Origin: Ruegeria sp. EL01
Lineage (GTDB): Bacteria; Pseudomonadota; Alphaproteobacteria; Rhodobacterales; Rhodobacteraceae
Direction of reading: 5' to 3'
NCBI RefSeq assembly: GCF_900313035.1
Contig: NZ_OMPS01000006.1
Span: 1 to 57,334, forward strand
Length of the DNA: 57,334 bases
Part shown: positions 9,376 to 29,480 of the stretch, one piece after another
How the letters are laid out: each line of letters begins with the position of its first letter
Position numbering within the stretch: position 1 is the stretch's first letter
Made by a program: the position numbers and the translations under genes
Notes under the pieces: model-generated
Databases searched by the model: none
What the model was told of the DNA's origin: nothing
Seen by the model: the letters and a program-made list of their open reading frames with translations, nothing else

Positions 9376-9450
<75 letters not shown>

Positions 9451-9807: not shown

Positions 9808-10824
9808 TCAATCGATTTTATTCTTTTGCGCGTGCGGCGTGACACCAAAACTTGAGCGGTAAACACGCGAGAAATGGCCGGGGTTTTCGAACCCGCAAGC
9901 CATTGCAACTTCGGTGACCGAAGCTTCGGTCTGCAAGAGCAATTTCTGCGCCCGCTCAAGACGCATTTCCATGAAGTACTTCTTCGGCGATGTGTTTAGA
10001 TACTTACCGAACAAACGCTCCAATTGACGGGTGGAAATTCCCAGCTGATCAGCGATGTAAGACGGGGGTACTGGCGCGTCGATACTGTCCTGCATCATGT
10101 GGATTGCCTTGGCCAAATGCGCGTTTCGCATGCCATTGCGCGATTGCAAGGAAACGCGTTGTTTGGCGGTGGCGTTCCGAACAGCGTTATAAACCATTTG
10201 GTCTGCAACATCGATTGACAGCTCTTCGCCATGGTCCTGTTCGATCAGATGCAACATCAGATCCGCTGTGGCGGTACCACCGGATGCGGTGATGTGTTTT
10301 TCGTCAGCGACAAACACGCTTCGCACCAGGTTGACCTCTGGAAAAGCCTCCATGAAGGCGTCGTGGTATTCCCAATGAATCGCGGCCTGCATCCCGTCCA
10401 GAAACCCTGCCTCAGCCAGCAGCCACGCCCCCGAACATAATGCGCCGATCGATGTACCCCGCGCTCGTTCGCGCCTCAGGGTGGCCAACAATGGCCTCGT
10501 GACATGGTTGCGCATGTGAATCCCCGACAGGACAAACAGCTGATCACATTTTCGCAACCCGTCGAGGCCGAAATGAGCCAATGTGACAGAACCGTTCGAG
10601 CATACAGCGTGTTCACCATGCTCGGACACAAACGACCATTCATACAGGTCTTTGCCACTGACAAGATTGGCAATGCGCAATGGTTCAACCGCGCAGGAAA
10701 ATGCGAGGTGCGAGAACTCCTCGATCAGGACGAAGGTGATGTGCCGGGTTTGGCGCATGTGCGGTACCGATTTGCGATTCAGGACAAGAAAAGCCCAAGT
10801 ATTTTCAGGTAGCCTATGCTGCAT
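9808..10824 (-). CDS. GlxA-type AraC-family regulator (DJ-1/PfpI domain plus HTH)
   Basis: The protein has 338 residues from 10824 (316 from an in-frame ATG at 10758, MRQTRHITFVLIEEF; neither start has a strong ribosome site). Residues about 25-215 form a DJ-1/PfpI-like sensor with IGALCSGAWLLAEAG around the conserved Cys and TASGGTATADLMLHLI. The last 100 residues are an AraC domain: YIADQLGISTRQLERLFGKY and VTEVAMACGFENPGHFSRVY. This architecture is shared by the betaine and carnitine regulators GbdR and CdhR. It is divergent from the GntR operon and is a strong candidate regulator of the betaine cluster. Confidence 0.85.
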   Translation of the reverse strand: MQHRLPENTWAFLVLNRKSVPHMRQTRHITFVLIEEFSHLAFSCAVEPLRIANLVSGKDLYEWSFVSEHGEHAVCSNGSVTLAHFGLDGLRKCDQLFVLSGIHMRNHVTRPLLATLRRERARGTSIGALCSGAWLLAEAGFLDGMQAAIHWEYHDAFMEAFPEVNLVRSVFVADEKHITASGGTATADLMLHLIEQDHGEELSIDVADQMVYNAVRNATAKQRVSLQSRNGMRNAHLAKAIHMMQDSIDAPVPPSYIADQLGISTRQLERLFGKYLNTSPKKYFMEMRLERAQKLLLQTEASVTEVAMACGFENPGHFSRVYRSSFGVTPHAQKNKID

Positions 10825-10924
10825 GATTTTTTTATGTATACAAGTTGTATTTTCTTCGAATACACATTGGCCAAATGTCGGTCAAATTGCGATTCGAACC
10901 GGCTGAACCGCGCAGAGGTCAGGA

Positions 10925-11635
10925 ATGAAAGACGACGCCAAATCACGGAAGAACACGCTAAGGGATCACCTGAGGGTCTCCATCCTGACACTACGCCTGC
11001 AGCCAGGCGCAGATCTGGACGAGGCGGATCTGTCTGACGCATTTGGATTGTCCCGGACCCCGCTACGCGAAGTTTTCCGCCAGTTGGCGGGTGAGGGTTA
11101 CGTGGATTTGCGTACCAACCGCAGCGCCCGCGTGTCCGAGATGTCCTACACCACGCTGCGCGATTTCTTTCTGGCGGCACCGATGATCTATGGCGCAGTT
11201 CTGCGGTTGGCGGCCCTGAATGCGACGCCTGCGCAGATTGCGGAGCTTAAAGACGCCCAAGAGACGTTTGAGGCGGCATTGCGATCCGGGTCTGGCGCGG
11301 ACCGGGCACTGGCCAATAATCGCTTTCACGAAGTAACCGGGGAAATGTCCGGCAATGTTTACCTGCTGCCCTCGTTCAACCGCCTGCTGATCGACCATGC
11401 CCGGATAGGCATGACATTCTATCGCCCACAAGGCGCTCAGATGCCTGAAAACCTGTCGGTGGCCAGTCAGCAGCACGAGGCCATCATTGCTGCCATCGAG
11501 GCGCGCGATGATGCAGCGGCGGCGCAGCTTGCCGAAGATCATTGGACCCTGTCGCGCGATCAGATCGAGCTTTTCGTGATGCCAGACGCACTGGATGTAC
11601 CGATGGGCGCCCCGCCCCTGTCGAAACCTGCATGA
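10925..11635 (+). CDS. GntR-family transcriptional regulator, FCD (FadR) subgroup
   Basis: A 236-residue protein. The N-terminal winged helix includes ILTLRLQPGADLDEADLSDA, then GLSRTPLREVFRQLAGEGYV. The all-helical FCD ligand domain follows, with the metal-ligand pattern ANNRFHEVTGEMSGN and later ASQQHEAIIAAIEARD. It leads the plus-strand catabolic operon: the DapA-like gene begins 8 bp after its stop. The usual role is local repression relieved by a pathway acid, here perhaps a hydroxyproline-derived metabolite. Divergent spacing from the AraC gene is about 100 bp. Confidence 0.85.
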   Translation: MKDDAKSRKNTLRDHLRVSILTLRLQPGADLDEADLSDAFGLSRTPLREVFRQLAGEGYVDLRTNRSARVSEMSYTTLRDFFLAAPMIYGAVLRLAALNATPAQIAELKDAQETFEAALRSGSGADRALANNRFHEVTGEMSGNVYLLPSFNRLLIDHARIGMTFYRPQGAQMPENLSVASQQHEAIIAAIEARDDAAAAQLAEDHWTLSRDQIELFVMPDALDVPMGAPPLSKPA

Positions 11636-11642
11636 GGACGGA

Positions 11643-12560
11643 ATGAACCCGATATTCAGATTTGAGGGGATCTATACCCCCGTCGTAACGCCGTATCACC
11701 TGGATGGCAGCGTCAACTGGGACGCCCTGTCAGAGATGATCGAGTATCTGATCGAGAACGGTGTCCATGGGATGATCTCGGGCGGGTCGACCGGTGAGAA
11801 CTATGCTCAGACCGTGACAGAACGTCTGGAGCTGGCCCGGTTCACACATAACCGCCTGCAGGGGCGTTTGCCTTTGGTGGTTGGAACCGGCGCAATGCTG
11901 ACACCCGATTCAATCGCGCTGGCCTCGGGCGCGCGCGAAATCGGTGCCGATGCAATCCTGCTGGCCAGTCCGCCTTATTCGGTGCCAACCGACCGGGAAA
12001 ATGCCTTGAACGCTCTGGCCATCGACAAGGCCGCTGATCTGCCGGTGATGCTGTACAACTACCCGCATCGCACCGGCACAATGATGGGTGAGGAATTCCT
12101 TGACCGCGTGGGTCGCAGTCGGAATTTCTGTGGCATCAAGGAGAGCTCGGGCGATATCAACCGGGTGCATCTGCTGGCGCGGGATTATCCGCATATCCAG
12201 CTTGGTTGCGGCATGGATGATCAGGCGTTGGAGTTCTTTGCCTGGGGCGCACCGTTCTGGGTCTGCGGCGGGTCGAACTTTCTGCCCGCCGAACATGTGG
12301 CACTGTACAACGCCTGTGTAGTCGAAGGTGATTTCGCCAAGGGCCGCCGGATCATGTCTGCGATGATGCCGCTGATGCGGGTGCTAGAACAGGGCGGCAA
12401 GTTCATCCAGACCATCAAGCACGGCGTCACCGTGAATGGGATCGACGCGGGTGCAATGCGGCCCCCGCTGAAGGGTCTGAACAAGGACGACAAACGCGCA
12501 TTGGAACAGGTGACGCGCGTACTGAAGAAGACTATCGCTGACATCGTGGCTGAGGAGTAA
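11643..12560 (+). CDS. DapA/DHDPS-superfamily lyase, possible 4-hydroxy-1-pyrroline-2-carboxylate deaminase
   Basis: The ATG at 11643 is preceded by GAGGACGGA and gives 305 residues. The TIM-barrel Schiff-base Lys lies in GIKESSGD and the proton-relay Tyr in MLYNYPHRTG; GGSTGENYAQT is the substrate loop. The superfamily includes dihydrodipicolinate synthase, N-acetylneuraminate lyase and the hydroxyproline-pathway deaminase that makes 2-oxoglutarate semialdehyde. Neighbouring aldehyde dehydrogenase, FAD oxidase and betaine-epimerase genes favour the hydroxyproline role over lysine synthesis, but this is inferred from context. Confidence 0.75.
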   Translation: MNPIFRFEGIYTPVVTPYHLDGSVNWDALSEMIEYLIENGVHGMISGGSTGENYAQTVTERLELARFTHNRLQGRLPLVVGTGAMLTPDSIALASGAREIGADAILLASPPYSVPTDRENALNALAIDKAADLPVMLYNYPHRTGTMMGEEFLDRVGRSRNFCGIKESSGDINRVHLLARDYPHIQLGCGMDDQALEFFAWGAPFWVCGGSNFLPAEHVALYNACVVEGDFAKGRRIMSAMMPLMRVLEQGGKFIQTIKHGVTVNGIDAGAMRPPLKGLNKDDKRALEQVTRVLKKTIADIVAEE

Positions 12561-12565
12561 GAGAC

Positions 12566-14062
12566 ATGGATCTGCTGACACAGGACGAATACAAATCCAT
12601 CGCCGCGGACCTTGAATTGCCGACCGGTTCCTTCATTGACGGGGCGTATCGCCCGGCGATCTCGGGGCACACGTTTGAAACGGTAAACCCAGCGACCGGT
12701 GACAAACTGGCCGATATCGCATCTTGCGGCACGGCAGATGTTGATTTCGCGGTCGAAAAAGCGCGCGAGGCGTTTGATGATGGGCGCTGGTCGAAACTGC
12801 ACCCATCTGATCGCAAGGATGTGCTGATCCGGCTGTGCAAATTGATGACCCGGAATGCCCGCGAACTGGCGGTGATGGAAAGCATTGATAGTGGTAAGAC
12901 CATCTATGACTGCGAAACCGTGGATGTACCCGAGACCATTCGCTGCCTGAAATGGCATGCTGAGGCGATCGATAAGATCTACGATCAGGTTTCACCCGCC
13001 AGTGATGATCACATCGCCATGGTAGTGCGCGAACCCATCGGCGTTGTGGGACTGGTACTGCCGTGGAACTTTCCGCTGCTCATGTTGGCGTGGAAGATCG
13101 GGCCTGCCTTGGCGGCGGGCTGCTCGGTTGTGGTGAAACCGGCAACCGAGACCACGCTGACCGCCCTGCGCGTGGCTGAACTGGCGATGGAAGCGGGCTT
13201 GCCACGGGGTGTATTGAACATCGTGCCAGGCGGTGGCGCCGAAGTGGGCGAGCCCATCGGTCGGCATATGGATGTCGACATGGTCTCGTTCACCGGCTCG
13301 ACTGTCACCGGCAAGCGGTTCCTCAGCTATTCGGCGGAAAGCAACGCCAAGGAAGTGGTGCTTGAGATGGGCGGCAAGAACCCGGCCATCGTGATGGAGG
13401 ATGCAGAGAACCTGGATCGTGTCGCCCAGCATGTGGTGAACGGGGCATTCTGGAACATGGGCGAGAACTGCTCGGCTTCATCCCGGCTGATCGTGCACAA
13501 GGATGTGAAGGCCGAGCTGCTGGAGAGGATCGTGCATCATGCAAGGCAGTGGAACGTCGGCGACCCGCTGGACCCGGAAACCCGCATGGGCGCGCTGGTC
13601 AGCGAGGCGCACTTCAATAAGGTTTGCGGCTATCTGGAGCAGGCCGAAAACGTGGTGATCGGCGGCAAGGCTGAAAAGGGCTTTGTCGAGGCCACGGTGG
13701 TCGAAGTACCAGCCAACGACGCAACGCTTGCCCGCGAAGAGATCTTTGGCCCAGTCCTGTCGGCAATCGAGGTATCGGGGTTTGATGAGGCCATCAAGAT
13801 TGCCAACGACACCGACTATGGCCTGTGTGCATCGATCTTTACCGCCAACGCCAAACGCGCCATTCGAGGCGCGCGGGCGATCCGCGCAGGGACGGTCACA
13901 GTGAATAGCTTTGGCGAAGGTGACATCACCACGCCCTTTGGGGGCTACAAACAATCAGGCTTTGGCGGGAGGGATAATTCGGTTCATGCGCATGATCAGT
14001 ATACTCAGCTGAAAACCATCTGGATCGATCTGGCAGACGACGCGGATGAGGCAGTGGATTGA
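12566..14062 (+). CDS. NAD(P)-dependent aldehyde dehydrogenase
   Basis: The 498-residue protein has the full ALDH set: VVLPWNFPLLMLAWKIGPAL, the cofactor loop FTGSTVTGKR, the general-base Glu in LEMGGKNPAIV, and the C-terminal PFGGYKQSGFGGRD. The catalytic-Cys region reads NMGENCSASSRLIV. The tail TQLKTIWIDL resembles PuuC-type aminoaldehyde dehydrogenases. In this operon a likely substrate is 2-oxoglutarate semialdehyde or an aminoaldehyde. It begins 5 bp after the DapA-like gene and overlaps the FAD oxidase start by 4 bp (TTGA), so expression is coupled. Confidence 0.88.
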   Translation: MDLLTQDEYKSIAADLELPTGSFIDGAYRPAISGHTFETVNPATGDKLADIASCGTADVDFAVEKAREAFDDGRWSKLHPSDRKDVLIRLCKLMTRNARELAVMESIDSGKTIYDCETVDVPETIRCLKWHAEAIDKIYDQVSPASDDHIAMVVREPIGVVGLVLPWNFPLLMLAWKIGPALAAGCSVVVKPATETTLTALRVAELAMEAGLPRGVLNIVPGGGAEVGEPIGRHMDVDMVSFTGSTVTGKRFLSYSAESNAKEVVLEMGGKNPAIVMEDAENLDRVAQHVVNGAFWNMGENCSASSRLIVHKDVKAELLERIVHHARQWNVGDPLDPETRMGALVSEAHFNKVCGYLEQAENVVIGGKAEKGFVEATVVEVPANDATLAREEIFGPVLSAIEVSGFDEAIKIANDTDYGLCASIFTANAKRAIRGARAIRAGTVTVNSFGEGDITTPFGGYKQSGFGGRDNSVHAHDQYTQLKTIWIDLADDADEAVD

Positions 14063-15399
14063 CACAATTCACCGCCAAACGTCTGCCCCGGCAAACCGGA
14101 TCGGCAGGGTGGAATGCCATCCTGCCGCAGCAGACGTTGTTGCCGGAACTGGACCGGGATCTGACGGCCGATATCACAATTGTCGGCGGCGGGTTTGCGG
14201 GGCTTTCAGCGGCACGGCGATTACATCAGCTTGATCCGTCCCTGAAGATTGTCCTGTTGGAGGCTGGTCGCTTTGCCGAAGGATCTGCCGGGCGCAACTC
14301 TGGCTTCATGATCGATCTACCGCATGATTTGGCATCCGACAATTATGCCGGTGATGGGCTTGACGCGGATCGGGCAACCATTGCCCTGAACCGACAAGCC
14401 ATTGCCTTTGCAACCGACATCGCCGCCGAGTGCGAGCTTCCGCAGGACGCGTTCGATCCCTGTGGCAAGTTCAATGCTGCCGCCACACGAGGCGGAGATG
14501 CCCATAACCGTGACTTTGCCGCGCATCTGGACCGGTTGGGTGAACCCCATTTCCTCTATGACCGACAACAAATGCGCGAGATGACGGGCAGCCCGCACTA
14601 CACCTCGGGCTTATATGCGCCCGGCACGGTCATGATCCAGCCTGCCGCCTATATTCGGGCGTTGTCGGCACGTCTGGCAGAACAGGTCGGGCTGTTCGAG
14701 AATTCGCCGGTCACCGGGTTTGAACGCCAAGGCGCCGGATGGCTTATCCGCACGCCCAAAGCGCGCATCACCACAGGGCGGATCATTCTGGCCAACAACG
14801 GCCATGTCGAAAGCTTTGGGTTTTTCCCAAGGCAGCTGATGCATATCTGCCTGTACGCCTCGCTAACCCAACCACTGACAACGGATCAGATCAAGGCGCT
14901 GGGGGGGCAAGCGCGTTGGGCGGTAACGCCCGCTGATGCGATGGGAACGTCTGTGCGACGTGTCTCGGGCAGCTACGGTGATCGAATTCTGATCCGCACC
15001 TGTTCCAGTTTTCACCCGACGATTGAAACCAGTCAGATGCGCCTGCGCAACGCAGGCTGGGTGCATGATCGCAAGTTTCGCGAGCGTTTCCCCCATCTGC
15101 CGGAGGTTCAGATGGAACACCGCTGGGCCGGGATGCTTTGCCTCAGTCGTAACGGATCTGCAGCGTTCGGGGAACTTGAAACCGGCATCTATTCCGCCTG
15201 TTGCCAGAACGGCTTGGGGATCGCGCGCGGTACCTTGCAGGGCATCGGGGTCGCAGAGCTGATCCAAAAAGGTGGCTCCGGGATTGCCGATCACTTTCTG
15301 GCCCAACCTGACCTGCCGCAATTGCCGCCCGAGCCCTTCGCCTCGCTTGGGGCAAACAGCTATCTGATCTGGAAAGAATGGCGATCGGGCAAGGAATAA
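14059..15399 (+). CDS. FAD-dependent amine/D-amino-acid oxidoreductase (DAO family)
   Basis: A 446-residue DAO-family protein that starts at TTG 14059, coupled to the ALDH stop. The dinucleotide fold reads ADITIVGGGFAGLSAARRL with ESGR-type follow-up GSAGRNSGFMIDLP, as in gamma-glutamylputrescine and sarcosine-type oxidases. GLYAPGTVMIQPAAYI and the C-terminal YSACCQNGLGIARGTLQG complete the pattern. It may oxidise a cyclic imino acid such as cis-4-hydroxy-D-proline or an N-methyl amine. It converges with the frameshifted SDR gene, whose altered frame runs antisense through its 3' end. Confidence 0.82.
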   Translation: MTQFTAKRLPRQTGSAGWNAILPQQTLLPELDRDLTADITIVGGGFAGLSAARRLHQLDPSLKIVLLEAGRFAEGSAGRNSGFMIDLPHDLASDNYAGDGLDADRATIALNRQAIAFATDIAAECELPQDAFDPCGKFNAAATRGGDAHNRDFAAHLDRLGEPHFLYDRQQMREMTGSPHYTSGLYAPGTVMIQPAAYIRALSARLAEQVGLFENSPVTGFERQGAGWLIRTPKARITTGRIILANNGHVESFGFFPRQLMHICLYASLTQPLTTDQIKALGGQARWAVTPADAMGTSVRRVSGSYGDRILIRTCSSFHPTIETSQMRLRNAGWVHDRKFRERFPHLPEVQMEHRWAGMLCLSRNGSAAFGELETGIYSACCQNGLGIARGTLQGIGVAELIQKGGSGIADHFLAQPDLPQLPPEPFASLGANSYLIWKEWRSGKE

Positions 15400-16123
15400 A
15401 CCTGCCCCTCAGGGCAAGCTGAGCTTCGCCATGCGTCCGCCATCCACCGTGTAAATCTGGCCCCGAGGCCAAAAAGGCGACCAAGGCTGCGACGTCTTCT
15501 GGCAAGCCAGTCCGGGTGACGGGATGGATACGCCCAATTTCATGACGGAATGTTTCCGGGTCCGACATTGACGCGATGAATTCCATATTCAGTTCGGTAT
15601 CGATCCACCCGGGTGCGACTGCATTGCATCTGATACCTTCCGCCCCGTGATCCACCGCAACTGCACGCGTGAATCCGTGCAATCCAGCTTTGGTGGCGCA
15701 ATAGGCCGCATGTCCGGGGTTGCTGCCCAGCCCTTCGATCGAGCCTATATTGACGATGTTTCCTCGGGTTTGCCGCAGATGGGGCAGCGCGGCTTTGGTC
15801 AGCAGAAAAGGCGCCGTCAGGTTGACCGTCAGATTGCGCTGCCAATCTTCAAGGCTCATGTCTTCGACCGACGCGTCTTGCATCATGCCTGCGTTGTTAA
15901 CCAGAATGTCCAGACGCCCTGCCCTGTCGATAACCTCTGAGATGACCTGTGCCGGGCAGTTAGGGTCACTGAGATCAGCGGCGATCCCTTCGTACACCAC
16001 GTCCGTCCCGCGTTGAGCGGTAAAGACGCGAGCCCCCTCGTGTTGCAACCGCTCGGCTATGGCCCGTCCGATGCCGCTGCGTCCGCCGGTGACCAGCGCC
16101 GTTTTGCCCTCGAACCGCATCAT
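15143..16123 (-). CDS. Short-chain dehydrogenase/reductase with a frameshifted C-terminus
   Basis: The N-terminal 230 residues form a classical SDR: TALVTGGRSGIGRAIA, LVNNAGMM, the catalytic Ser in NIGSIEG and YCATK. The frame fails near 15461-15466. After AFLAS the expected tail GQIYTVDGGRMAKLSLP is encoded in another frame with its stop at 15409-15411, while the open frame runs on antisense through the oxidase gene to 15143. About 20 bp, coding roughly seven residues, appear deleted at the junction. The product has an aberrant tail of some 75 residues or is nonfunctional, unless this is an assembly error. Its start overlaps the upstream SDR stop (ATGA). Confidence 0.75.
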   Translation of the reverse strand: MMRFEGKTALVTGGRSGIGRAIAERLQHEGARVFTAQRGTDVVYEGIAADLSDPNCPAQVISEVIDRAGRLDILVNNAGMMQDASVEDMSLEDWQRNLTVNLTAPFLLTKAALPHLRQTRGNIVNIGSIEGLGSNPGHAAYCATKAGLHGFTRAVAVDHGAEGIRCNAVAPGWIDTELNMEFIASMSDPETFRHEIGRIHPVTRTGLPEDVAALVAFLASGPDLHGGWRTHGEAQLALRGRFIPCPIAILSRSDSCLPQARRRARAAIAAGQVGPESDRQSRSHLFGSALRPRCPARYRARSPSRSGNRRNRCRFQVPRTLQIRYD

Positions 16124-16851
16124 GACACTGGTTTTCCGCCGTTGACCTCAATCAGCGAGCCACAGACATAGCGGGATGCATCCGAGACCAGAAACATCAC
16201 GACATCCGCGATATCCTCAGGCTCGGCAATACGCCCAAGAGGAACGGTTTCCCCGAGCGCCGCAACGGCTGAATCTGGGTCAAATCCGCGTTTCTCAAAC
16301 CCCGAACGCAGCATCGGTGTGTTCACTTCATTTGGGCAGACGGCGTTGATGCGAATACCCTGATGCGCGTGATCCATTCCCATGCATTGGGTCAGTGACG
16401 CGATCGCAGCCTTGGTCATGCAATAGACCGCATGATTCGAACCGGGTCGAAGGCCCCAACAGGACGCGGTATTGACGATGGATCCTCCGCCAGTGCCGGT
16501 CAGGATCGGGATCGCGGCGTGGCAAATGCGAAACGGGGCTTCGACATTCACGCCGACGGATAGCGCCCAATCGGCGTCCGATGTGTCGACTACAGACCCC
16601 CGCGTAATGACGCCTGCATTGTTGATCACAATATCCAGGCCACCCAGATGCGCAGCCGCGGTCTGTGGCAAGGTATTCGCGTAATCGGCATTCAGAAGGT
16701 CGCCGGGCAAATGGGCCTCGGCCGCGATCCCGTCGACAGATCGGTCTGCGACCGCGACACGTGCACCGGCTGCCCGCAATCTTTGAACAATCGACGTGCC
16801 AATGCCACCTGCGGCACCCGTGACCAATGCAGACTTCCCGGTCAGTTCCAT
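16120..16851 (-). CDS. Short-chain dehydrogenase/reductase
   Basis: A 243-residue classical SDR: the cofactor loop TGAAGGIGTSIV, VINNAGVI, the catalytic Ser in VNTASCWG and YCMTKAAIA. The C-terminal YVCGSLIEVNGGKPVS is normal. It lies 12 bp after the epimerase gene and overlaps the second SDR. In this cluster it might oxidise a hydroxyl on a pyrrolidine or betaine substrate. The sequence alone does not give the substrate. Confidence 0.85.
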   Translation of the reverse strand: MELTGKSALVTGAAGGIGTSIVQRLRAAGARVAVADRSVDGIAAEAHLPGDLLNADYANTLPQTAAAHLGGLDIVINNAGVITRGSVVDTSDADWALSVGVNVEAPFRICHAAIPILTGTGGGSIVNTASCWGLRPGSNHAVYCMTKAAIASLTQCMGMDHAHQGIRINAVCPNEVNTPMLRSGFEKRGFDPDSAVAALGETVPLGRIAEPEDIADVVMFLVSDASRYVCGSLIEVNGGKPVS

Positions 16852-16863
16852 TTATACCCCTTC

Positions 16864-17967
16864 TCAGAAAGACGCGGCAGGCGCGCCAAACAAGCTTTCA
16901 TCCGGCATGACGCCCAAACCCGGTCCCGTCGGCACCGCGATATGGCCCTTTTCGATCCGAATTCCGTTTTCGACGTCGTAGTTCCCGTCGATATATGGCG
17001 CGGCCAGCCAAACGCCCTCCAGCAAATCCGGGCGAACTGTGGCCCCGATATGCGTACAGGCCGCAGCGATGATATCGCCACCCCAACTGTCATCGCAGGT
17101 GTGGGGCAAATTTCGCGCCTCGCACAGATCGCGGAATGCACGCATCGGGTACAGCCCCCCGATCCGAGTGACTTTCATGCCGAACCCATCGACCAACCCG
17201 GTTCCCGCAGCCGAGATCACCGTGTTCAGGTCGGTGCTGTTCTCATCCATATAGATGGCATGGTTTACCTGAGGCCGGATCTTTTGGAGATCCTCAACCG
17301 TGTTGCAGGGCTGTTCCATAACAAAGGGTATTTCCGGACATTCACGGCTAACCCGCAACGCGTCGCGCGTGTTCCAACCCCAATTGCCATCCACTGCCAG
17401 ACGCATACCCGAGCCATCAATGACCTCCCAAACTTTGCGGATGGTTTCGATGTCCAGCTCGACCGGACGACCACCAACTTTCACTTGCAGACGGGGGTAG
17501 CCCTCGGTCAGTTTCTCAGCCGCGAGCCGGGCAATGTCGTCTGGCGCGCCGACACCTGTGGCATAGTAGGACGGCACTGTGTGCGTGGCAGCGCCGCCGA
17601 GCAGTGCAGAAACACTGACGCCGAGATGCTTGCCCAACAAGTCATGCGCCGCGATGTCGATTGCGGCTTTGGCATAGTTATGCCCATTCAACAGCCCGTC
17701 CATGCGGCGGTGCAGGGTCAGCGGCAGAACCTCAGCCCCGATCAGACCGGGTGCCATTTGTGACAAGGCAGCGCGGGCACCTGCAGCATGCGCCTCAGCA
17801 TATGTCGGGCCAACCGGGCAGGTCTCACCCCATCCCGTCAAGCCATTGTCGGCAACCAGCTTTACCAAGGTAGTATCCAGTGCCCAGACTTCCGCTTTAG
17901 CCATCGTATAAGGGCCGTTCTTCACAGGCAGGTCATGACTGTAGATGTGGATTTCCGCGATTTTCAA
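16864..17967 (-). CDS. hpbD: Enolase-superfamily racemase, HpbD-like (4-hydroxyproline betaine / proline betaine 2-epimerase)
   Basis: The 367-residue protein belongs to the mandelate racemase/muconate cycloisomerase subgroup. The acid-base Lys pair is visible as LQVKVGG and [10 protein letters not shown]. Metal ligands are Asp in LAVDGNWGW, Glu in FVMEQPCN and Asp in YMDENSTD. From memory it is very close to HpbD of Pelagibaca bermudensis: [43 protein letters not shown] and [17 protein letters not shown] are shared almost residue for residue. HpbD epimerises C2 of trans-4-hydroxy-L-proline betaine and proline betaine, opening their catabolism. MttB-like and BCCT neighbours support the assignment. 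Confidence 0.85.
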
Positions 17968-18039
17968 TCTATAATCCCTGGTCTTGTTGCCTCACGAACC
18001 TCGGCCAAACTGTTGGCGGATCAATTCGGGGAGAGTGCC

Positions 18040-19587
18040 CTAATATGTCTGATTCAACTCATCTGCGGCCGGAATTTCCCGTTCCCGGCGCGCGATATAA
18101 TCCAGAAGCTCATCGTTTTTCGCTTCGTCCAGCTTGGGCTCTTCATACTCAGCCAGAAGTTTGCGCGCGTGGTTCAATGCACGTTCGGTGATCTCGACCT
18201 CGCCCTCGGCAGCCCATTGTTCGATGGAGTTGTTGTCAAACATCTCGGGCATGAAGAACGCGGTCTGGAAATTGTCCTGCGTATGCGGATGGCCCAGATA
18301 ATGCCCGCCCGGCCCGACATCCGGAACAGCAGCCAAAGCTTGATCAAAGTCACCCCACATAGGACCCTCGGCCATGCGGTAGGCCATTGCGCATTGTTCG
18401 GCATCGACGATGAACTTGGCGACCGAACAGTGCATTCCGGCCTCGTTCCAGCCCGCCGAGTGCCAGATGTAGTTCGCGCCGGAATGGATCACAGCCTGCA
18501 ACGTGGTCGCCGATTCATAGCCCGCCTGCGCGTCAAAGGTCTTGGCCCCACCCAGCGTGTTTGATGTGCGCCAGGGCACTTGGTAGTACCGCGCCATCTG
18601 CCCGATCATGAAATTCATCAGGCTGATCTCGGGCGTGCCCGCCATGGGTGCGCCGGACCTCATCGACACGGTTGACAGGTAATGGCCATAGATCGCTGGC
18701 GCTCCTTTGCGGATCACCTGCGTGTAGGCCAGTGCGCTGAGTGCTTCGGCATTCAGTTGGGCAACGGTGGCCGGTACGCTTGCCGGAGTATTGGCCCCAC
18801 CCAACACGAAAGGCGAGCAGAGGACAGGCTGGTTGCGGCGGCAGAAGGCCCGCATTGCGCCCAGCATGGTTTCATCCCAGACCAAGGGCGAGTTGCCATT
18901 GCAGTTGCCGGTTGTGACGGCGTGATCTTCAAGGAAGTCTTCGCCAAACAGGATCGCACACATGTCCAACACGTCCTCGGCATTCTTCGGCGAGGTGGTC
19001 ATGCCCATGAAGGTCTTATCCGAGTGTTTCATCGACGAATAGGTGATGCGCAGGTGACGCTGACTGATCGGGTGATCATAGGGCTCGACGATGTGATGCG
19101 CCGAGGAATGCAGCGCCGGCATCATATGGCTGAGTTTGTGGAACATGGCCAGATCGTCCAGCGTCGGATTGCGGCGGACATCGTCGAGATCCCGCAAGAA
19201 AGGCGCGCCGGTCATCGGCACGAAGATCGAGTGCTTGCCACCCAGCCGCAGGTTCTTTTTTGGGTCGCGCGCATGATAGGTAAAATCTGAAGGGATCGTG
19301 GCGATCAGTTCCCGCACCATATCCCGGTCGAAATACACCAGTTCACCCTCAACCTTTGCCCCGGCGCGTTTCCAGTCTTCCAATGCGATCGCATCGCGGA
19401 ACTGAACGCCCACATTCTCGAGGATATCCATTGAAGCATTGTCAATCCGCTCGACCTGGCTTCCGTCCATGACCTCGCACAATGGTATCGCACGGGTCAG
19501 GCCCGGCAACATGTCAAAGTTTGGTGCGGTGCGTATTGCGCGGCGAGCAGAACGCCCGCCTGATCTGGTAGTTGTGCGGATATTCAC
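18040..19587 (-). CDS. MttB-family (COG5598) methyltransferase, non-pyrrolysine type
   Basis: I prefer the GTG at 19587, preceded by GGAGG at a spacing of 8, giving 515 residues; GTG 19614 and ATG 19602 lack such a site. The family marks include ALHSSAHHIVEPYDHP, then GNCNGNSPLVWDETML and the late VGPGGHYLGHPHTQDNFQ. No in-frame amber codon is present, so it is not a pyrrolysine enzyme. Non-Pyl members such as MtgB (glycine betaine) and MtpB (proline betaine) move a methyl group to a corrinoid protein. No corrinoid protein or methyl-tetrahydrofolate transferase gene is in the window. It lies 72 bp upstream of the HpbD-like gene, probably in one operon. Confidence 0.85.
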   Translation of the reverse strand: MNIRTTTRSGGRSARRAIRTAPNFDMLPGLTRAIPLCEVMDGSQVERIDNASMDILENVGVQFRDAIALEDWKRAGAKVEGELVYFDRDMVRELIATIPSDFTYHARDPKKNLRLGGKHSIFVPMTGAPFLRDLDDVRRNPTLDDLAMFHKLSHMMPALHSSAHHIVEPYDHPISQRHLRITYSSMKHSDKTFMGMTTSPKNAEDVLDMCAILFGEDFLEDHAVTTGNCNGNSPLVWDETMLGAMRAFCRRNQPVLCSPFVLGGANTPASVPATVAQLNAEALSALAYTQVIRKGAPAIYGHYLSTVSMRSGAPMAGTPEISLMNFMIGQMARYYQVPWRTSNTLGGAKTFDAQAGYESATTLQAVIHSGANYIWHSAGWNEAGMHCSVAKFIVDAEQCAMAYRMAEGPMWGDFDQALAAVPDVGPGGHYLGHPHTQDNFQTAFFMPEMFDNNSIEQWAAEGEVEITERALNHARKLLAEYEEPKLDEAKNDELLDYIARREREIPAADELNQTY

Positions 19588-19692
19588 AAGGCGATCCTCC
19601 ATCTTACGATTCACTGTGAAGGATTCGGCGCGCAGCTACCTCTCTGATTGCGATATGTGTTTGCAGGAAGCGACACGGAGGCAAAGACGTTG

Positions 19693-19729
19693 CCAAAAAG
19701 AAAAAGCGCCACCCGAAAGGGCGGCGCTT
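19693..19729 (-). terminator. Rho-independent terminator after the BCCT transporter gene
   Basis: On the minus strand the hairpin AGCGCC-G-CCC, loop TTTC, GGG-T-GGCGCT is followed by TTTTCTTTTT. It lies 26 bp after the transporter stop and before the mttB-like gene, so that gene must have its own promoter. Confidence 0.85.
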
Positions 19730-19754
19730 GTTCATTTTTTGTCAGGCCTTGGCT

Positions 19755-21581
19755 TTATTCAGCAGCCTGCGCTCCTTGCTCGGCGTGCTTGTCGCGCTGA
19801 CCATCCCGGAACAGGGCTTTAGCTAGCGAGATACACATCAAGCCCATCACAATCGTAAACGGCAGCGCGCCGATGATCATGGCATTGCGCAAGGCATCCA
19901 TGGGGTTGTTGTCCCCTGCCGCCAGGATCAGTGCGCCGATCACAGCCGTCAAGATGACACCCCAGATGATGCGGTGCTTGATCCCAGTTTCCTGGCTGCC
20001 GCCGGACATGATGGTGTTCATCACCAGAATGCCGGAGTCAGCCGAGGTCACCAGGAAGGTCATGATCAGGATCACGCACATGACGTTCAGCATGGACAGC
20101 AGCCCGCCATCGATCATGTAGGACAGGGTCACGAACAGCTTGTTTGTGTTCGAAGCGCCGATGATCGCGCCTTCTGCGGCACCTGCCAGTTCCAGATCAA
20201 TCGCGGTGCCACCCAGAACAGTCATCCATGCAAAACACACCAGCGCCGGTGCGAACACGCAGCCCAGAATGAACTCACGCACGGAACGACCTTTGGAGAT
20301 GCGTGCCAGGAACAGACCCACGAATGGCGAGAACGCAATCCACCAGGCCCAGTAGAACGTGGTCCAACCGGACTGCCAGCCAAACTGACGACCTTGCTCA
20401 CCCGCAGCATAGGCTGCCGCCAGCGTTTCTTCGTCCAACTCAGCGGCTGCACCTTCCAGACCGCTCTTGAAGCCATCAAAACTGCCCCACGCGTTGGTTG
20501 CACCACCTATCAGGTCATCTGCATGGGCTTGCGCCGCCTCAGGCAGACCTGCTGCAAACGCATCCGCTGACAATGGACCATAGGCACCAAAGCTGAGCGA
20601 CAGGAAGTTCAGGATATAGTCGACCATCGCCGTGCCATAAGTGGTCAGGGCGAAAACGAACGAACCAAACACGACGAACGTACCCAGCAGGATAATCGAC
20701 AGAACCAGGTTCAGGTTCGACAGGTATTTAACGCCACGGCCAACACCCGACACAGCCGAGATGATCGACAGGGTCATGATGACAACAAGACCCGCGATCA
20801 GACCCACTTTGCTTGGGGTCGGCACTTCACCGGTCAGGTCCATGATCCATCCGATACCGGTAATCGCGTAGACACCGTCGATGAATTGACTGACACCAAA
20901 TCCAATGGTCACAGACACACCGAGGATGGTTGCAACCACGCCCAGAACGTCGACGACATGGCCAAGGAAGCCATTCATCAGGCGGCCAAACAGTGGCGTC
21001 AGTGCCGCGCGGATGGTCAGTGGCATATTGCGCGTATAGGCGTAGTAAGCCAGAGACAGGCCGGTCACCACATAGATTGCCCAGGCGTGAAAGCCATAAT
21101 GCAAGAATGTGTAGCGATAAGCAGACTGGATTGCCTCGGGTTCATTGCCAGCAACTGCACCCGATACGACCTCGGGGTTCGATCCCCAAAGGCCCAGTGG
21201 TTCAGCCGTGGCGAAGACCATCAGGCCCACGCCCAGTCCCGCGCCAAACATCATCGAGAACCAGGAGAAATTGGAAAACTCGGGCTTTTCACCCGCAGTG
21301 CCCATGATCCGTTTGCCGGTGGACGGGATGATAGCCACGACCGCCAGGAACAGGAAGAACACGCCCACAATGATGACGTAGAAGCTGTTGAAAACTTCCA
21401 ACAACCTACCATTCAGGCTGCCCAATGTGCTGTTTGCATTCGCAGGAAAAACCAGCGCCCAAAGGACCAGGGCAACCATGATACCTTTGCTGATCAGCGC
21501 GATCGGAACGCTGTAATTTTCATAGAATCCGGCATCTGCCGTTTCTATCTCTAGGTCCGTAAAGGGTTCGGGTACCGACAT
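19755..21581 (-). CDS. BCCT-family betaine/carnitine/choline transporter
   Basis: A 608-residue membrane protein with about 12 helices. The start has a strong ribosome site (GGAGGAAAAT before ATG). Family marks are MMFGAGLGVGLMVFATAEPL and the aromatic box TTFYWAWWIAFSPFVGLFLA followed by RISKGRSVREFILG. Tyr and Trp residues here form the quaternary-ammonium cage in BetP and CaiT. The GAGLGVG stretch lacks the usual GMGIG sodium motif residues, so ion coupling is open. An insert of about 70 residues rich in Ala and Glu lies before the aromatic box. It likely imports the betaine that the cluster degrades. Confidence 0.92.
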   Translation of the reverse strand: MSVPEPFTDLEIETADAGFYENYSVPIALISKGIMVALVLWALVFPANANSTLGSLNGRLLEVFNSFYVIIVGVFFLFLAVVAIIPSTGKRIMGTAGEKPEFSNFSWFSMMFGAGLGVGLMVFATAEPLGLWGSNPEVVSGAVAGNEPEAIQSAYRYTFLHYGFHAWAIYVVTGLSLAYYAYTRNMPLTIRAALTPLFGRLMNGFLGHVVDVLGVVATILGVSVTIGFGVSQFIDGVYAITGIGWIMDLTGEVPTPSKVGLIAGLVVIMTLSIISAVSGVGRGVKYLSNLNLVLSIILLGTFVVFGSFVFALTTYGTAMVDYILNFLSLSFGAYGPLSADAFAAGLPEAAQAHADDLIGGATNAWGSFDGFKSGLEGAAAELDEETLAAAYAAGEQGRQFGWQSGWTTFYWAWWIAFSPFVGLFLARISKGRSVREFILGCVFAPALVCFAWMTVLGGTAIDLELAGAAEGAIIGASNTNKLFVTLSYMIDGGLLSMLNVMCVILIMTFLVTSADSGILVMNTIMSGGSQETGIKHRIIWGVILTAVIGALILAAGDNNPMDALRNAMIIGALPFTIVMGLMCISLAKALFRDGQRDKHAEQGAQAAE

Positions 21582-22049
21582 ATTTTCCTCCGTGTTGTCG
21601 TTCCATAGTGTTTGTTATTGGGGAAACCCGCTAGGATCGCAGCGCTTCCCATAAGTTATTCACATGTTCGTATTTAACTTGAGCGTTTTGGTAACCAAGG
21701 ACGGTGCCCAGCGCGGAACAGAGTCTCAATCGTGCGCCCAGCCTTACCATCCCAACTCCTTCGTTCCGGTCTACCCCAGTGCTATGGGTAAGCCGTGCCA
21801 GAACCGAAAGACAAAGCCGGGCAGGTACACCCCGACAGCGTATCGGATACGACATTACATGGTCCGTCTGCGTACAGGCTCACTGATTTGATCGTCAGGC
21901 CGTTACCGACCCTTTCTGTCGGTTTGACGACTTATACAGCAAACTTAAACGCCAAATACACCTTCAACGTATCATCTGCTGGTCTTCAAGGATAAAAAAA
22001 TTAATAGTCAGGCGAAACAAACTAAATCGAAGCAAGTGACAGGACCCGA
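21582..22049. other. Divergent intergenic region between BCCT and LysR genes
   Basis: About 470 bp. It should hold the promoters of both genes. The near-palindrome GTATCGGATAC lies at about 21840. No gene-like frame with start support is visible, and the stretch just before the LysR start is A-rich. Confidence 0.5.
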
Positions 22050-22955
22050 ATGTCCCGACGCCACTACAATTTGCCCCCTCTGACCACCCTGTCAGCCTTT
22101 GAAGCGGCGGCACGACATCTGAGTTTCAAAAACGCCGCAGAAGAGCTTTCGGTGACGCCAGGGGCGGTCAGCCATCAGATTAAGGCGCTGGAAGGGTATC
22201 TTGAGACAGCGCTGTTTCAGCGCAAGCATCGAAGCGTTGATCTGACCGATGATGGAAAGGCGCTGTACGAAGCACTTTCAACCTCCTTTCGTCGAATTTC
22301 ACAAACCTTGTCTACCATCCGGGATCGGTCGTTAGGGGAAAAAGTCACGATAGGTTCGACAACGGCTGTGGCGGCGTTGTGGCTGTCTCCGGCGGTCATT
22401 CGGTTCTGGCGTGAAATGCCGGATGTGAACGTGGATCAGATTTCGCAGGATCGCCCTTTCAAGGAGCGACCGGATCTGGACTTTTTCATCAGATACGGGC
22501 GTGACCGGGATTCGAACCTGTCCCATACCCCGTTGTTTCGGGATCATCTCGTTCCTGTTGCCAGCCCGGAAGTGGCGGAAAAGCTGGTGGGCGCGGGCCT
22601 TGACGTGCTGGCCAATCAACGACTGATCCATCTGGATTCCGAGGATCGCAGCTGGACGACCTGGCCAGAATGGTTCCAGCAGCTTGGGTATCCGGGCAAA
22701 ATCTCGATCGAATCCAGCGTCAACAGCTACTCTGTCGCGCTTCAGCTTGCTCGCAAAGGCGCAGGGCTGGCGCTAGGCTGGCAGCGGTTGATTCAGCCCA
22801 TGCTTCAATCGGGGAAACTGGTGGCCATCGGACCGCGTAACCTGACGGCACCAAACCATTTTTATCTTGTGGGACGACCCGAGGAAGAGCTTTCGGAAAG
22901 CGCGCGCGCGCTTAAGAATTGGATCGTGCAGGAGGTTCACACCAGTTCGGTTTAG
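22050..22955 (+). CDS. LysR-family regulator, GcvA-like
   Basis: A 301-residue protein. The N-terminal winged helix reads LPPLTTLSAFEAAARHLSF, KNAAEELSVTPGAVSHQIKA, LEGYLETALFQRKHR, the GcvA-type version. The effector domain follows from about residue 92 (KVTIGSTTAVAALWLSP) to GAGLALGWQRLIQPML. GcvA-like proteins often control glycine or one-carbon genes, which suits a pathway that releases methyl groups. It is divergent from the BCCT gene and upstream of the Rieske gene; either or both may be targets. Confidence 0.88.
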   Translation: MSRRHYNLPPLTTLSAFEAAARHLSFKNAAEELSVTPGAVSHQIKALEGYLETALFQRKHRSVDLTDDGKALYEALSTSFRRISQTLSTIRDRSLGEKVTIGSTTAVAALWLSPAVIRFWREMPDVNVDQISQDRPFKERPDLDFFIRYGRDRDSNLSHTPLFRDHLVPVASPEVAEKLVGAGLDVLANQRLIHLDSEDRSWTTWPEWFQQLGYPGKISIESSVNSYSVALQLARKGAGLALGWQRLIQPMLQSGKLVAIGPRNLTAPNHFYLVGRPEEELSESARALKNWIVQEVHTSSV

Positions 22956-22967
22956 ATCAACTAAACC
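22949..22967 (+). terminator. Hairpin across the LysR stop codon
   Basis: GGTTTAG, loop ATCAA, CTAAACC, then TTT. The stem contains the stop codon. The short T run makes it a weak terminator at best, or an operator for the Rieske gene. Confidence 0.4.
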
Positions 22968-23054
22968 TTTGATGAGCTTTTCTGATATTGAGGCCGACCC
23001 ATAGTCTCCGCCAATACGACAGGGTCAGGTTTAACCCAGCCTCAGGAGAGTTCG

Positions 23055-24209
23055 ATGAACAAGCACAGCCCGCTGTCGTCCGTTCTGACCGATGTAAACA
23101 CGGCCAACGGCCTGCCCAACGAGCACTATGTTGACCCGGAAACCTTCGCAGAAGAAAAGCGCTCGGTCCTGTTTGCGAACTGGTCCGGCATCGGATTTGG
23201 CAAGGACGTCCCCGAAGCAGGCGACGCAAAACCGGTCGATTTTCTGGGCATGCCACTGCTGATCGTCCGGGACCGCGATGGTGAGATCGGCGTATTTCAA
23301 AACACCTGCCGGCACCGCGGCATGATCCTGGTGGACGCGCCTAAAAAGATCGGTGGCGCCATTCGGTGTCCGTATCACAGCTGGTGTTACAGCCTGAAAG
23401 GTGAATTGCGTGCGACCCCCCATGTGGGCGGCCCTGGCCAGAACAAACACGAAGACGTCAACACCAAGGATCTAGGTCTGATGCGCATCCGGTCGCACAT
23501 CTGGCGCGACGTGATCTTTGTGAACATCGATGGCAATGCCCCGGCGTTTAAAGATGCGCACGGCGCCTTGTTGGAGCGTTGGAAGGAATTCGATACGCCG
23601 ATCTTCCATGGCGGTGATGAATCGTCTTTCAAGCTTGAAATCAAAACCAACTGGAAGCTGGCCGTCGAAAACTATTGCGAAAGCTACCACCTGCCTTGGG
23701 TTCACCCGGGCCTCAACAGCTACTCCCGACTGGAAGATCACTATAACATCGAAGAGCGTGGGCATTACTCTGGGCAGGGCACGTTGGTCTATCGCCAGTT
23801 GACCGATCAAAACGGTGCAAAGCTGCCTGATTTCCCCGGTCTCGGCAGCCAATGGGATGAAGGCGCTGAGTATATTGCCCTGTATCCGAACGTATTGCTG
23901 GGCATACAGCGCGACCACAGTTTTGCGATTATTCTAGAACCCGTGGATCAGGAAAATACCGTCGAACATATCGAGCTGTACTACGCCAACGGCGAGGGTG
24001 ACACGCCCGAACACGACGGGTTGCGCGCCTCAAATGCGCAACTGTGGAAAACCGTGTTCGAAGAAGATGTATTTGTTGTCGAGGGTATGCAAAAGGGCCG
24101 TCACGGCATGTTGTTTGACGGCGGGCGTTTCTCTCCGGCGATGGATGGGCCAACCCATAATTTTCACCACTGGGTGGCAACGCAGATCGAAAACGGTCGT
24201 TCCGAGTAA
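23055..24209 (+). CDS. Rieske non-haem iron oxygenase, catalytic subunit (betaine/carnitine demethylase type)
   Basis: The ATG at 23055 follows AGGAGAG. The 384-residue protein has the Rieske site C-x-H ... C-x2-H in NTCRHRGMILV and RCPYHSWCYS, and the mononuclear iron site in ENYCESYHLPWVHPGL (two His) with a C-terminal acidic ligand. This is the GbcA/CntA/Stc2-like subgroup acting on quaternary amines by oxidative N-demethylation or C-N cleavage. No reductase partner gene is in the window, so it must borrow one. In this cluster proline betaine or hydroxyproline betaine are candidates. Confidence 0.85.
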   Translation: MNKHSPLSSVLTDVNTANGLPNEHYVDPETFAEEKRSVLFANWSGIGFGKDVPEAGDAKPVDFLGMPLLIVRDRDGEIGVFQNTCRHRGMILVDAPKKIGGAIRCPYHSWCYSLKGELRATPHVGGPGQNKHEDVNTKDLGLMRIRSHIWRDVIFVNIDGNAPAFKDAHGALLERWKEFDTPIFHGGDESSFKLEIKTNWKLAVENYCESYHLPWVHPGLNSYSRLEDHYNIEERGHYSGQGTLVYRQLTDQNGAKLPDFPGLGSQWDEGAEYIALYPNVLLGIQRDHSFAIILEPVDQENTVEHIELYYANGEGDTPEHDGLRASNAQLWKTVFEEDVFVVEGMQKGRHGMLFDGGRFSPAMDGPTHNFHHWVATQIENGRSE

Positions 24210-24499: not shown

Positions 24500-24623
24500 C
24501 TTTGATCCCAGTTGCTTGAGCCATCACTGGCCCGCGGCATTCCCCCACGAGACCCTGTTCAGATCCAAACATCCGCCTATAGTCTCGGGACATTGCAACG
24601 GGTCGTTTGAAAGGAACACGCAC

Positions 24624-26096: not shown

Positions 26097-26097
26097 T

Positions 26098-27156: not shown

Positions 27157-27233
27157 GGCGGAGTAGCTCAGTTGGTTAGAGCAGCGGAATCATAATCCGC
27201 GTGTCGGGGGTTCAAGTCCCTCCTCCGCTACCA
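27157..27233 (+). tRNA. tRNA-Met (CAT), integration target
   Basis: A 77-nt cloverleaf with encoded CCA. The anticodon stem GCGGA/TCCGC holds the loop ATCATAA with CAT. The T loop TTCAAGT is normal. CAT can also be the lysidine-modified Ile tRNA; the body here fits elongator Met better, but I cannot exclude Ile2. The 3' 49 bp are repeated at 47921, showing that this gene is the attachment site of the element that follows. Confidence 0.93.
27185..27233 (+). repeat. attL (49-bp core, 3' end of tRNA-Met)
   Basis: Identical to 47921-47969. It runs from the 5' side of the anticodon stem to the CCA end, so the tRNA stays intact at this side. Confidence 0.95.
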
Positions 27234-27943: not shown

Positions 27944-28328
27944 CAAGACTGCCGAAAGAACATGTTGAGTGTAGCCATCCGCCACATCTGAAAACTTGAA
28001 AAGTGGCTTCGCTGCAAGGGCGTCTGAGTCGTCATCTTGGACGCCTACACACCGAAGAAACAAGTAGAAGGGTTGCATCGCCGTTATTTGCGGGGCTTTG
28101 GGGTGCCGTACACTTAGCAGTAGAAAGCCCGTTTCTTTCCAGTAAAACGGAAAGAGCTTCGAGTTATAGGGGGGGGCAGCCCCGCTGTTTGTCCGCTGTA
28201 TTATCAGCGAGTCAGGGTCGGCATGTTTGCCGGTCCTCCACCGCCTATCGAAGCTCGATCTGATCCGGCGAACTCAGAATGATTTGCGGCCTACCTTTTA
28301 TGGCTGTTTCGACGGCTGGATATCTCGA
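27944..28328. other. Non-coding stretch
   Basis: About 385 bp between the lipoprotein gene and a convergent membrane protein gene. I see no supported gene or clear terminator. Confidence 0.4.
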
Positions 28329-28952: not shown

Positions 28953-28967
28953 TTGGGGGCGCGAGCG

Positions 28968-29453: not shown

Positions 29454-29480
29454 TGGCGTGCGGACAGCTGTCCAGTTGGT

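Follow-up and report, generated by a model that had tools for sequence, protein, structure and literature searches.

The window analysed here (the whole stretch of 57,334 bases, i.e., bases 1-57334 of contig C19 in the 5.32 Mb genome of Ruegeria sp. EL01) contains a gene cluster that we read, with moderate confidence, as one for 4-hydroxyproline betaine catabolism, in which the first demethylation would be carried out by a corrinoid enzyme of the MttB superfamily. This cluster adjoins a module composed of a BCCT transporter and a Rieske oxygenase, the latter of which probably serves another betaine. The main genes are the following.

11643-12560, + strand: DapA-family protein (PF00701), predicted deaminase (HypD role)
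12566-14062, + strand: aldehyde dehydrogenase (ALDH), predicted 2-oxoglutarate semialdehyde dehydrogenase (HypE role)
14059-15399, + strand: FAD oxidase of the DAO family, predicted cis-4-hydroxy-D-proline oxidase (HypO role), possibly N-demethylating
15143-16123, - strand: SDR2, short-chain dehydrogenase (SDR) with a frame-shifted 3' end
16120-16851, - strand: SDR1, short-chain dehydrogenase
16864-17967, - strand: HpbD, predicted 4-hydroxyproline betaine 2-epimerase / proline betaine racemase
18040-19614, - strand: MttB-superfamily corrinoid methyltransferase (PF06253, 710.8 bits, full length), predicted (hydroxy)proline betaine demethylase
19755-21581, - strand: BCCT betaine transporter (PF02028, 476.5 bits)
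22050-22955, + strand: GcvA-like LysR regulator of the Rieske module (NCBIfam GcvA subfamily, 233.9 bits, cut-off 288)
23055-24209, + strand: Rieske oxygenase, not of the HpbB/GbcA/Stc2 type

The genes are arranged in blocks: a GlxA/AraC regulator (-); a GntR regulator, DapA, ALDH and the FAD oxidase (+); SDR2, SDR1, HpbD, MttB and BCCT (-); and, on the right-hand side, LysR, Rieske, a flavoprotein resembling Baeyer-Villiger monooxygenases (BVMO) and an alpha/beta hydrolase (+). An earlier note on this DNA had listed a GlxA/AraC regulator, a DapA-like enzyme, an ALDH, an FAD oxidase, an HpbD-like epimerase, an MttB homologue, a BCCT transporter, a GcvA-like LysR regulator and a Rieske gene, all of which are present at the cluster; the GntR/FCD regulator, SDR1 and SDR2 are absent from its account.

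The HpbD epimerase

A phmmer search of the window HpbD against the PDB yielded 621 bits for 4e8g and 573 bits for 2pmq/4h2h, with the next enolase at 221 bits. The protein presents 73% identity to 4e8g and 68% to 2pmq, both of which we take to be HpbDs. The earlier note had named a grouping of the epimerase outside HpbD as grounds for refuting it; in a tree of 94 rows (LG+C20, midpoint root for drawing), it falls inside the HpbD clade, among 86 HpbD rows that include 4e8g, 2pmq, the Paracoccus pantotrophus protein (72-73% identical and named hpbD in its record) and the Rhodobacter sphaeroides protein. Eight rows of HpbD2, a neighbouring enolase paralogue, separate at 100/100 support, and the nearest HpbD relative of the window protein, from an uncultured Ruegeria, is 94% identical.

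Residues K163, D193, E218, D241, K265, W295, Y134 and Q161 are kept in 86/86 HpbD rows, and W28 in 76/86; they presumably comprise two catalytic lysines, three metal ligands and aromatic pocket residues. The eight HpbD2 rows present V at the W295 position and I at the Y134 position. Clade membership and the kept active site residues thus point to an HpbD-like epimerase, as the earlier note had proposed.

HpbD often has as neighbours a zinc alcohol dehydrogenase and a second enolase that shares about 35% identity with it, as in loci L030, L044, L055, L063, L069, L078 and others; the top model for the L055 second enolase is cis-3-hydroxy-L-proline dehydratase, with 302.9 bits against a cut-off of 500. 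In L186 (Sinorhizobium meliloti AK57 pSymA), the HpbD match is broken into three pieces for which no gene is annotated; it lies close to GntR, DapA and a transporter of the ProVWX type, and may be a decaying copy.

MttB and its partners across relatives

Two sets were considered: a family sample of 198 genomes, about one per genus, with hits accepted at E<=1e-200 for MttB, 1e-90 for DapA, 1e-70 for SDR1 and 1e-100 for HpbD; and a set of HpbD loci, the best 80 of 211, with flanks of up to 10 kb, rich in Ruegeria and scored for gene content by tblastn tables. In the family sample, MttB is found in 52 genomes, DapA in 54 and both in 49 (Fisher p = 7e-37, a value that, like the other Fisher values given here, ignores descent). 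The two genes are at most 12 kb apart in 44 of these 49; in the remaining five, they are on different contigs (G163, G020 and G078) or 249 kb (G055) and 70 kb (G178) apart. MttB occurs without a DapA hit in G129, G133 and G173, and DapA without MttB in G039, G092, G151, G180 and G192.

SDR1 is present in 19 of the 198 genomes, all of which have MttB. HpbD is present in 13, of which 12 have MttB (G117 does not), 11 have SDR1 and 12 have the DapA protein; the HpbD hit in G109 is merely 47% identical. Conversely, 40 of the 52 MttB genomes present no HpbD hit at 1e-100. Given these counts, MttB and DapA form the core, to which the SDR pair and HpbD are optional, near-nested additions. The steady partner of MttB is the DapA-ALDH-FAD-oxidase triad, not HpbD. 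The 80 HpbD loci, of which 52 have MttB, 57 the SDR pair and 48 DapA, agree with the family sample.

The role of MttB is suggested by locus L044 of Paracoccus onubensis, where a Rieske oxygenase and a reductase lie directly before HpbD-SDR1-SDR2, with the triad opposite. These proteins are 56% and 62% identical to those beside P. pantotrophus hpbD, and the window-type MttB was not found in the 21 kb examined. The slot before HpbD-SDR1-SDR2 is hence held by MttB in the window and by an HpbB/HpbC-type pair in L044, which suggests MttB does the same job, i.e., takes a methyl group off a betaine. In our judgement, this exchange is the best sequence evidence for MttB as a putative betaine demethylase. 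It is our assumption that the Rieske and reductase of P. pantotrophus are HpbB and HpbC; the record itself names just hpbA and hpbD.

In four Roseovarius loci (L045, L048, L053 and L059), a cytochrome P450 lies between HpbD and SDR1, a possible third demethylation chemistry.

The corrinoid kit

The description of the MttB homologue as non-pyrrolysine in the earlier note is borne out: the only in-frame TAG of the gene is its stop. On the trimethylamine (pyrrolysine) model, the protein scores 271.1 bits against a cut-off of 525; its scores against solved relatives are 500.6 bits for 4yyc and 347.1 bits for the glycine betaine methyltransferase 9yce. The genome encodes seven MttB paralogues; identity between the window MttB and any of the remaining six does not exceed 42%.

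A single stand-alone corrinoid protein is encoded in the genome, with 232 aa and two B12-binding domains. Given it scores 199 and 168 bits on the MtgC models, under the cut-offs of 370 and 310, membership of the named MtgC family is not claimed. The genome has two further B12 proteins, both as long as mutases; no B12 protein with the length of MetH was found in it. Two Pterin_bind proteins exist, the stronger of which was taken as FolP and the other, with 356 aa, as MtgD-like; the only RACo-type activase is encoded about 2.4 kb from the latter. The genome therefore holds a corrinoid protein, a pterin-binding methyltransferase and a RACo-type activase, one of each, which would serve all seven MttB paralogues.

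Such sharing has precedents. The portion of PMC12478193 available to us describes a corrinoid kit of this kind handling glycine betaine in Ruegeria pomeroyi, reports as many as seven MtgB-like genes in a single marine genome and suggests other methylated substrates for them. In Eubacterium limosum, MtpB, MtcB and MtyB share one corrinoid protein, according to the available part of PMC8604678.

The triad, the second methyl group and the SDR pair

The DAO, DHDPS and ALDH family members of the window form one operon-like row, and the available part of PMC4113996 gives DAAO/DHDPS/ALDH as a route from cis-4-hydroxy-D-proline to 2-oxoglutarate. The suggestion in the earlier note that a DapA-like enzyme, an ALDH and an FAD oxidase could complete the hydroxyproline route fits this triad, and it is by analogy with it that the DapA protein is assigned a putative function. 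Since proline betaine would not need DapA, the presence of this gene suggests a hydroxylated substrate.

The DapA protein matched seven models, all under their cut-offs, and no deaminase model is among the hits. The top model for the ALDH is PuuC, with 523.3 bits (cut-off 850); on the 2-oxoglutarate semialdehyde (KGSA) dehydrogenase GucD the ALDH scores 357.2 bits (cut-off 770), and its closest solved structure is 7uyy. The structure model of the FAD oxidase agrees equally well with glycine oxidase, L-proline dehydrogenase and sarcosine oxidase. Among the 80 loci, the FAD oxidase slot beside the same dehydrogenase is filled by one of two versions: the first shares about 74-90% identity with the window's oxidase, the second about 41-58%.

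Regarding the second methyl group, the candidates are the FAD oxidase of the cluster and proteins similar to dimethylglycine dehydrogenase (DMGDH) encoded elsewhere in the genome, where ten full-length ones exist. HpbA-like proteins (at least 50% identical) occur in 5 of the 80 HpbD loci, and other loci have a P450 or a DMGDH.

SDR1 and SDR2 are 40% identical and both keep YxxxK. The pair is present in 57 of the 80 HpbD loci, and neither member ever occurs alone (57/57); this constant pairing would suit a two-step inversion of the 4-hydroxyl. In the window, about 20 nt have been lost near the 3' end of SDR2 in comparison with L060 and L021, so that the final residues are frame-shifted and the gene overlaps that of the FAD oxidase. 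In the 57 other loci with SDR2, the protein has the usual C-terminal motif in 49 and normal length (241-244 aa) without the motif in eight.

The type of the Rieske oxygenase

The earlier note had placed the Rieske oxygenase in the GbcA/CntA/Stc2 type, an assignment we do not retain. On the GbcA model, it scores 101.9 bits against a cut-off of 670; the HpbB-type Rieske of P. pantotrophus scores 489.4 bits, likewise under the cut-off, and is only 23% identical to the window protein. The Rieske ligands are kept, and the bridging Glu aligns with the E of CntA, which is E205 in the available part of PMC10952381. According to the same part, a CxxC by the mononuclear iron is found in some group V Rieske oxygenases, including CntA and Stc2. 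In the window protein this CxxC is absent, the corresponding residues being CESYHLPWVH, as opposed to ECYHC in CntA and the HpbB type. Given the absence of CxxC and the low GbcA score, we do not file the protein with GbcA, CntA, Stc2 or HpbB.

The motif NWKLAVENYCESYHLPWVH is present in 15/15 Rieske copies near HpbD, and ESYHL in the window protein, in L180 and in the same 15/15 copies. ECYHC is found in the HpbB-type Rieske of P. pantotrophus, L044 and L081 (the L039 and L046 copies fall outside the search pattern). Amine oxidation by the window protein is suggested by its neighbours. Homarine and carnitine were considered as substrates and left aside, though not disproved, as nothing links either to the protein; a literature search on homarine named no Rieske route.

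The Rieske oxygenase as a separate module

The window-type Rieske (74-97% identical) is present in the flanks of 15 of the 80 HpbD loci, 12 of which also have MttB. Ten loci present the window's order, with BCCT-LysR-Rieske beside MttB (the Ruegeria type), whereas in L010 (Leisingera), L024 (Bugula symbiont) and the annotated plasmid of Leisingera sp. NJS204 LysR-Rieske lies on the other side, after GlxA. L044, L052 and L055 have the window-type Rieske with HpbD, this MttB not being in the stretch, and in L081 (Rhodobacter kunshanensis) MttB is paired with an HpbB-type Rieske. MttB and a Rieske beside one HpbD are thus found in three arrangements and with two Rieske families. The earlier note had singled out two demethylation chemistries beside one epimerase, and had asked how gene order compares in other Rhodobacteraceae: the pairing does recur, in two arrangements (12/80 HpbD loci) and also in L081, but the window's Rieske is of another family than the note supposed.

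The companions of the window-type Rieske are a LysR regulator, an ALDH (some loci), a DMGDH-like DAO+GcvT protein (9/15 loci; absent from the window) and a BCCT transporter. A LysR relative adjoins it in 14 of the 15 HpbD loci (the L044 stretch starts inside the Rieske gene) and in 9/9 examined regions with a copy at least 70% identical. In total, 20 Rieske regions were examined, of which 11 hold copies under 70%; none of these 11 has an adjoining LysR relative, and seven share the same neighbour v0, which we take to be acetolactate synthase from its first residues. Copies under 70% were therefore set aside as another lineage when counting, which kept 10 of the 91 family genomes with a hit at 1e-100. 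Of these 10 (among 198), seven have MttB (p = 0.004) and three have HpbD (p = 0.02); MttB and DapA are far more tightly associated than this Rieske is with either.

In G043, a genome of the same genus with no HpbD hit, the module is on another contig than MttB and comprises BCCT (91%; L156), a reductase relative at the 24% level, LysR, Rieske (75%) and DMGDH, while the MttB and BVMO match starts are about 210 bp apart. In L008, L019, L076 and L134, the module site is likewise empty, with BVMO facing MttB about 210 bp away; in the window, this gap measures 5.0 kb and holds BCCT, LysR and Rieske. Given the module is separate in G043 and its site is empty in relatives, it is most simply regarded as an insertion. 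The short distance in those four loci also suggests that, in Ruegeria, the neighbourhood of MttB may include BVMO and the alpha/beta hydrolase.

No DMGDH remnant was found in the window, the sole weak match lying inside the FAD oxidase. A DMGDH-like protein on contig C39 (71% identical to that of the module) was considered as a split-off part and rejected, its adjoining ALDH being merely 36-37% identical to that of the module.

Proposed pathway and alternatives

The sequences themselves establish which genes are present, the HpbD clade, the lack of a pyrrolysine codon, the co-occurrence and order of genes, the single corrinoid kit and the empty sites in relatives; from these we infer every substrate, the order of the steps, the role of the SDR pair and the substrate of the Rieske oxygenase. 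A betaine would be taken up by the BCCT transporter (or by an OpuAC-type ABC transporter in some relatives), and epimerisation at C2 by HpbD would yield cis-4-hydroxy-D-proline betaine. MttB would then hand one N-methyl group over to the sole stand-alone MtgC-like corrinoid protein, and the MtgD-like pterin-binding protein would move this group on to tetrahydrofolate; the RACo/RamA-type protein would bring the cobalt back to its active state. Removal of the second methyl group would fall to a flavin enzyme, which may be the cluster's own DAO-family oxidase or any of the ten DMGDH-like proteins, after which the oxidase, the DapA-family deaminase and the ALDH would lead to 2-oxoglutarate. The SDR pair would invert C4 via a 4-oxo intermediate, admitting other stereoisomers, and the Rieske oxygenase would act on another betaine that also enters by the BCCT transporter and would demethylate it, the simplest candidate being proline betaine.

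A bolder proposal is that an O2-independent B12 route for hydroxyproline betaines exists in these aerobes, in which HpbD (C2) and the SDR pair (C4, via a 4-oxo betaine) would funnel all four stereoisomers to one corrinoid methyltransferase; on several occasions, strains would have supplemented this core with a Rieske module directed at another betaine. We put this forward only tentatively, as less likely than not.

Several observations weigh against 4-hydroxyproline betaine catabolism by way of MttB. The window cluster presents no clear demethylase for the second methyl group, and the best match in the genome to an HpbA-type (StcD-like) second demethylase is 31% identical and was rejected as an orthologue. 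The ALDH scores best on PuuC and not on the KGSA model, all seven models of the DapA protein are under cut-off, and the modelled fold of the FAD oxidase would suit N-demethylation as well as ring oxidation. SDR2 is damaged in this genome. Three MttB genomes have no DapA hit and five DapA genomes no MttB, and given 40 of the 52 MttB genomes have no HpbD hit, the MttB substrate need not pass through HpbD. Finally, the 80 loci are Ruegeria-rich, being the best of 211, and the Fisher values do not account for descent.

Among the alternatives, the strongest is that MttB and the Rieske oxygenase take the same first methyl group from one and the same betaine, each under its own conditions of oxygen (low or high) or of B12 or iron supply; the earlier note had suggested as much with regard to oxygen levels. 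The 12 HpbD loci with both enzymes in two arrangements, the pairing of MttB with an HpbB-type Rieske in L081 and the HpbB/HpbC pair in the MttB slot of L044, which indicates the chemistries can replace each other there, speak for it. However, the window Rieske is not of the HpbB type, comes with a LysR and often a DMGDH of its own, and is also found in L154, L156, L160 and L161, stretches without this MttB or HpbD, so that we regard this alternative as unlikely.

Less probable still is that the triad serves another methylated amine and that HpbD feeds it just in some strains. MttB and DapA do occur without an HpbD hit in 37 of the 198 genomes, and the ALDH is PuuC-like; yet the triad matches the cis-4-hydroxy-D-proline route given in the available part of PMC4113996, and the DapA protein accompanies HpbD in 12 of 13 genomes.

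We give a similarly low probability, if anything a shade lower, to a sequential scheme in which MttB takes the first methyl group and the Rieske oxygenase oxidises off the second, from N-methyl-hydroxyproline. The lack of a clear second demethylase in the cluster, from which the DMGDH found in 9/15 loci is absent, would suit such a scheme, but 40 of the 52 MttB-holding HpbD loci have no window-type Rieske in the examined flanks, the 25 kb surrounding the pB cluster of R. sphaeroides contain no annotated Rieske, and the genome of the window itself offers ten full-length DMGDH-like proteins. The earlier note had suggested that the two enzymes take different methyl groups off a single substrate; given the Rieske is of another family, its module is separable (G043) and its site is empty in four relatives, this is not the best reading.

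That MttB is simply the strain's glycine betaine methyltransferase (MtgB), located beside HpbD by accident, is very improbable in spite of its 347 bits to 9yce, as the genome has six other MttB paralogues, at most 42% identical to it, and throughout the family this MttB goes with the triad.

If 4-hydroxyproline betaine catabolism through MttB is correct, one of the numerous MttB-superfamily genes in marine bacteria that lack an assignment would gain a substrate, B12 supply would be linked to the turnover of hydroxyproline betaine, a cell-protecting solute, and the demethylation step of a known pathway would be exchangeable between oxygenase and corrinoid chemistry.

Other features of the window

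The remaining features of the cluster and its borders are given below.

9376-9450: tRNA-Thr, which together with the tRNA-Met brackets the cluster
9808-10824, - strand: GlxA-type AraC regulator (PF12833 + PF01965; DJ-1/PfpI + HTH)
10925-11635, + strand: GntR/FCD regulator, first gene ahead of the triad
19704-19729, - strand: terminator-like hairpin in the BCCT/MttB gap (11 pairs, 8 G-C, T-rich after)
24621-27084, + strand: BVMO-like flavoprotein and alpha/beta hydrolase
27157-27233: tRNA-Met

The top NCBIfam model for the GlxA regulator is GbdR, with 310.6 bits against a cut-off of 480, and its GlxA counterpart in the pB cluster of R. sphaeroides shares 61% identity with the window protein. 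The GntR/FCD regulator adjoins DapA in many core loci. Since the scanned stretch holds 20 hairpin sites of this class, as against 17.2 in shuffles, the terminator-like hairpin is weak evidence alone.

Beyond the cluster, 28000-48000 is a phage-like stretch, with an integrase (46510-47733, -), a DUF3987 protein (42318-43832, -) and an SLT transglycosylase protein (35955-37838, -), and 48951-53597 (+) holds a row composed of an imelysin-like protein, a di-haem oxidoreductase and a Peptidase_M75.

Comparison with known systems

The Hpb pathway for hydroxyproline and proline betaine was reportedly described by Zhao 2013 and Kumar 2014, and the P. pantotrophus pPAN2 gene order, including hpbD, is on record. 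In the literature searched, which excluded Zhao 2013, Kumar 2014 and Picking 2019, no publication joining MttB with hydroxyproline was found, a weak negative. The window shares with the Hpb pathway HpbD, a betaine transporter and the oxidase/DHDPS-type deaminase/ALDH route to 2-oxoglutarate (the route as given in the available part of PMC4113996). It differs in that MttB replaces the HpbB/HpbC-type Rieske and reductase, in the SDR pair, in a Rieske of another family and in that no HpbA orthologue was found in its genome.

In comparison with MtgBCD of R. pomeroyi, likened here by description and not by sequence, both systems belong to aerobic roseobacters and comprise MttB-superfamily, corrinoid and pterin-binding proteins with RamA encoded apart, going by the part of PMC12478193 available; the predicted substrate in the window is, however, a cyclic betaine, and the gene lies in a hydroxyproline-type cluster. 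The MtpB of E. limosum, again likened by description through the available part of PMC8604678, is also a non-pyrrolysine MttB homologue, and the two have in common a proline-type betaine, predicted in our case, and a shared corrinoid protein, whereas E. limosum is an anaerobic acetogen.

The same core is found on plasmid pB of Cereibacter (Rhodobacter) sphaeroides 2.4.1, an organism for which proline betaine catabolism has been published (Kumar 2014, as cited in the available part of the review PMC11337228 and referenced in PMC4113996). No Rieske is annotated in the 25 kb examined there, and the cluster has an ABC transporter instead of the window's BCCT and adjoins sulfoacetaldehyde acetyltransferase and phosphate acetyltransferase genes. 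Its order is MttB-HpbD-SDR-SDR, triad, GntR, ProVWX-type transporter and GlxA, and it shares with the window MttB (77%), HpbD (72%), the SDR pair, the triad, GntR and GlxA.

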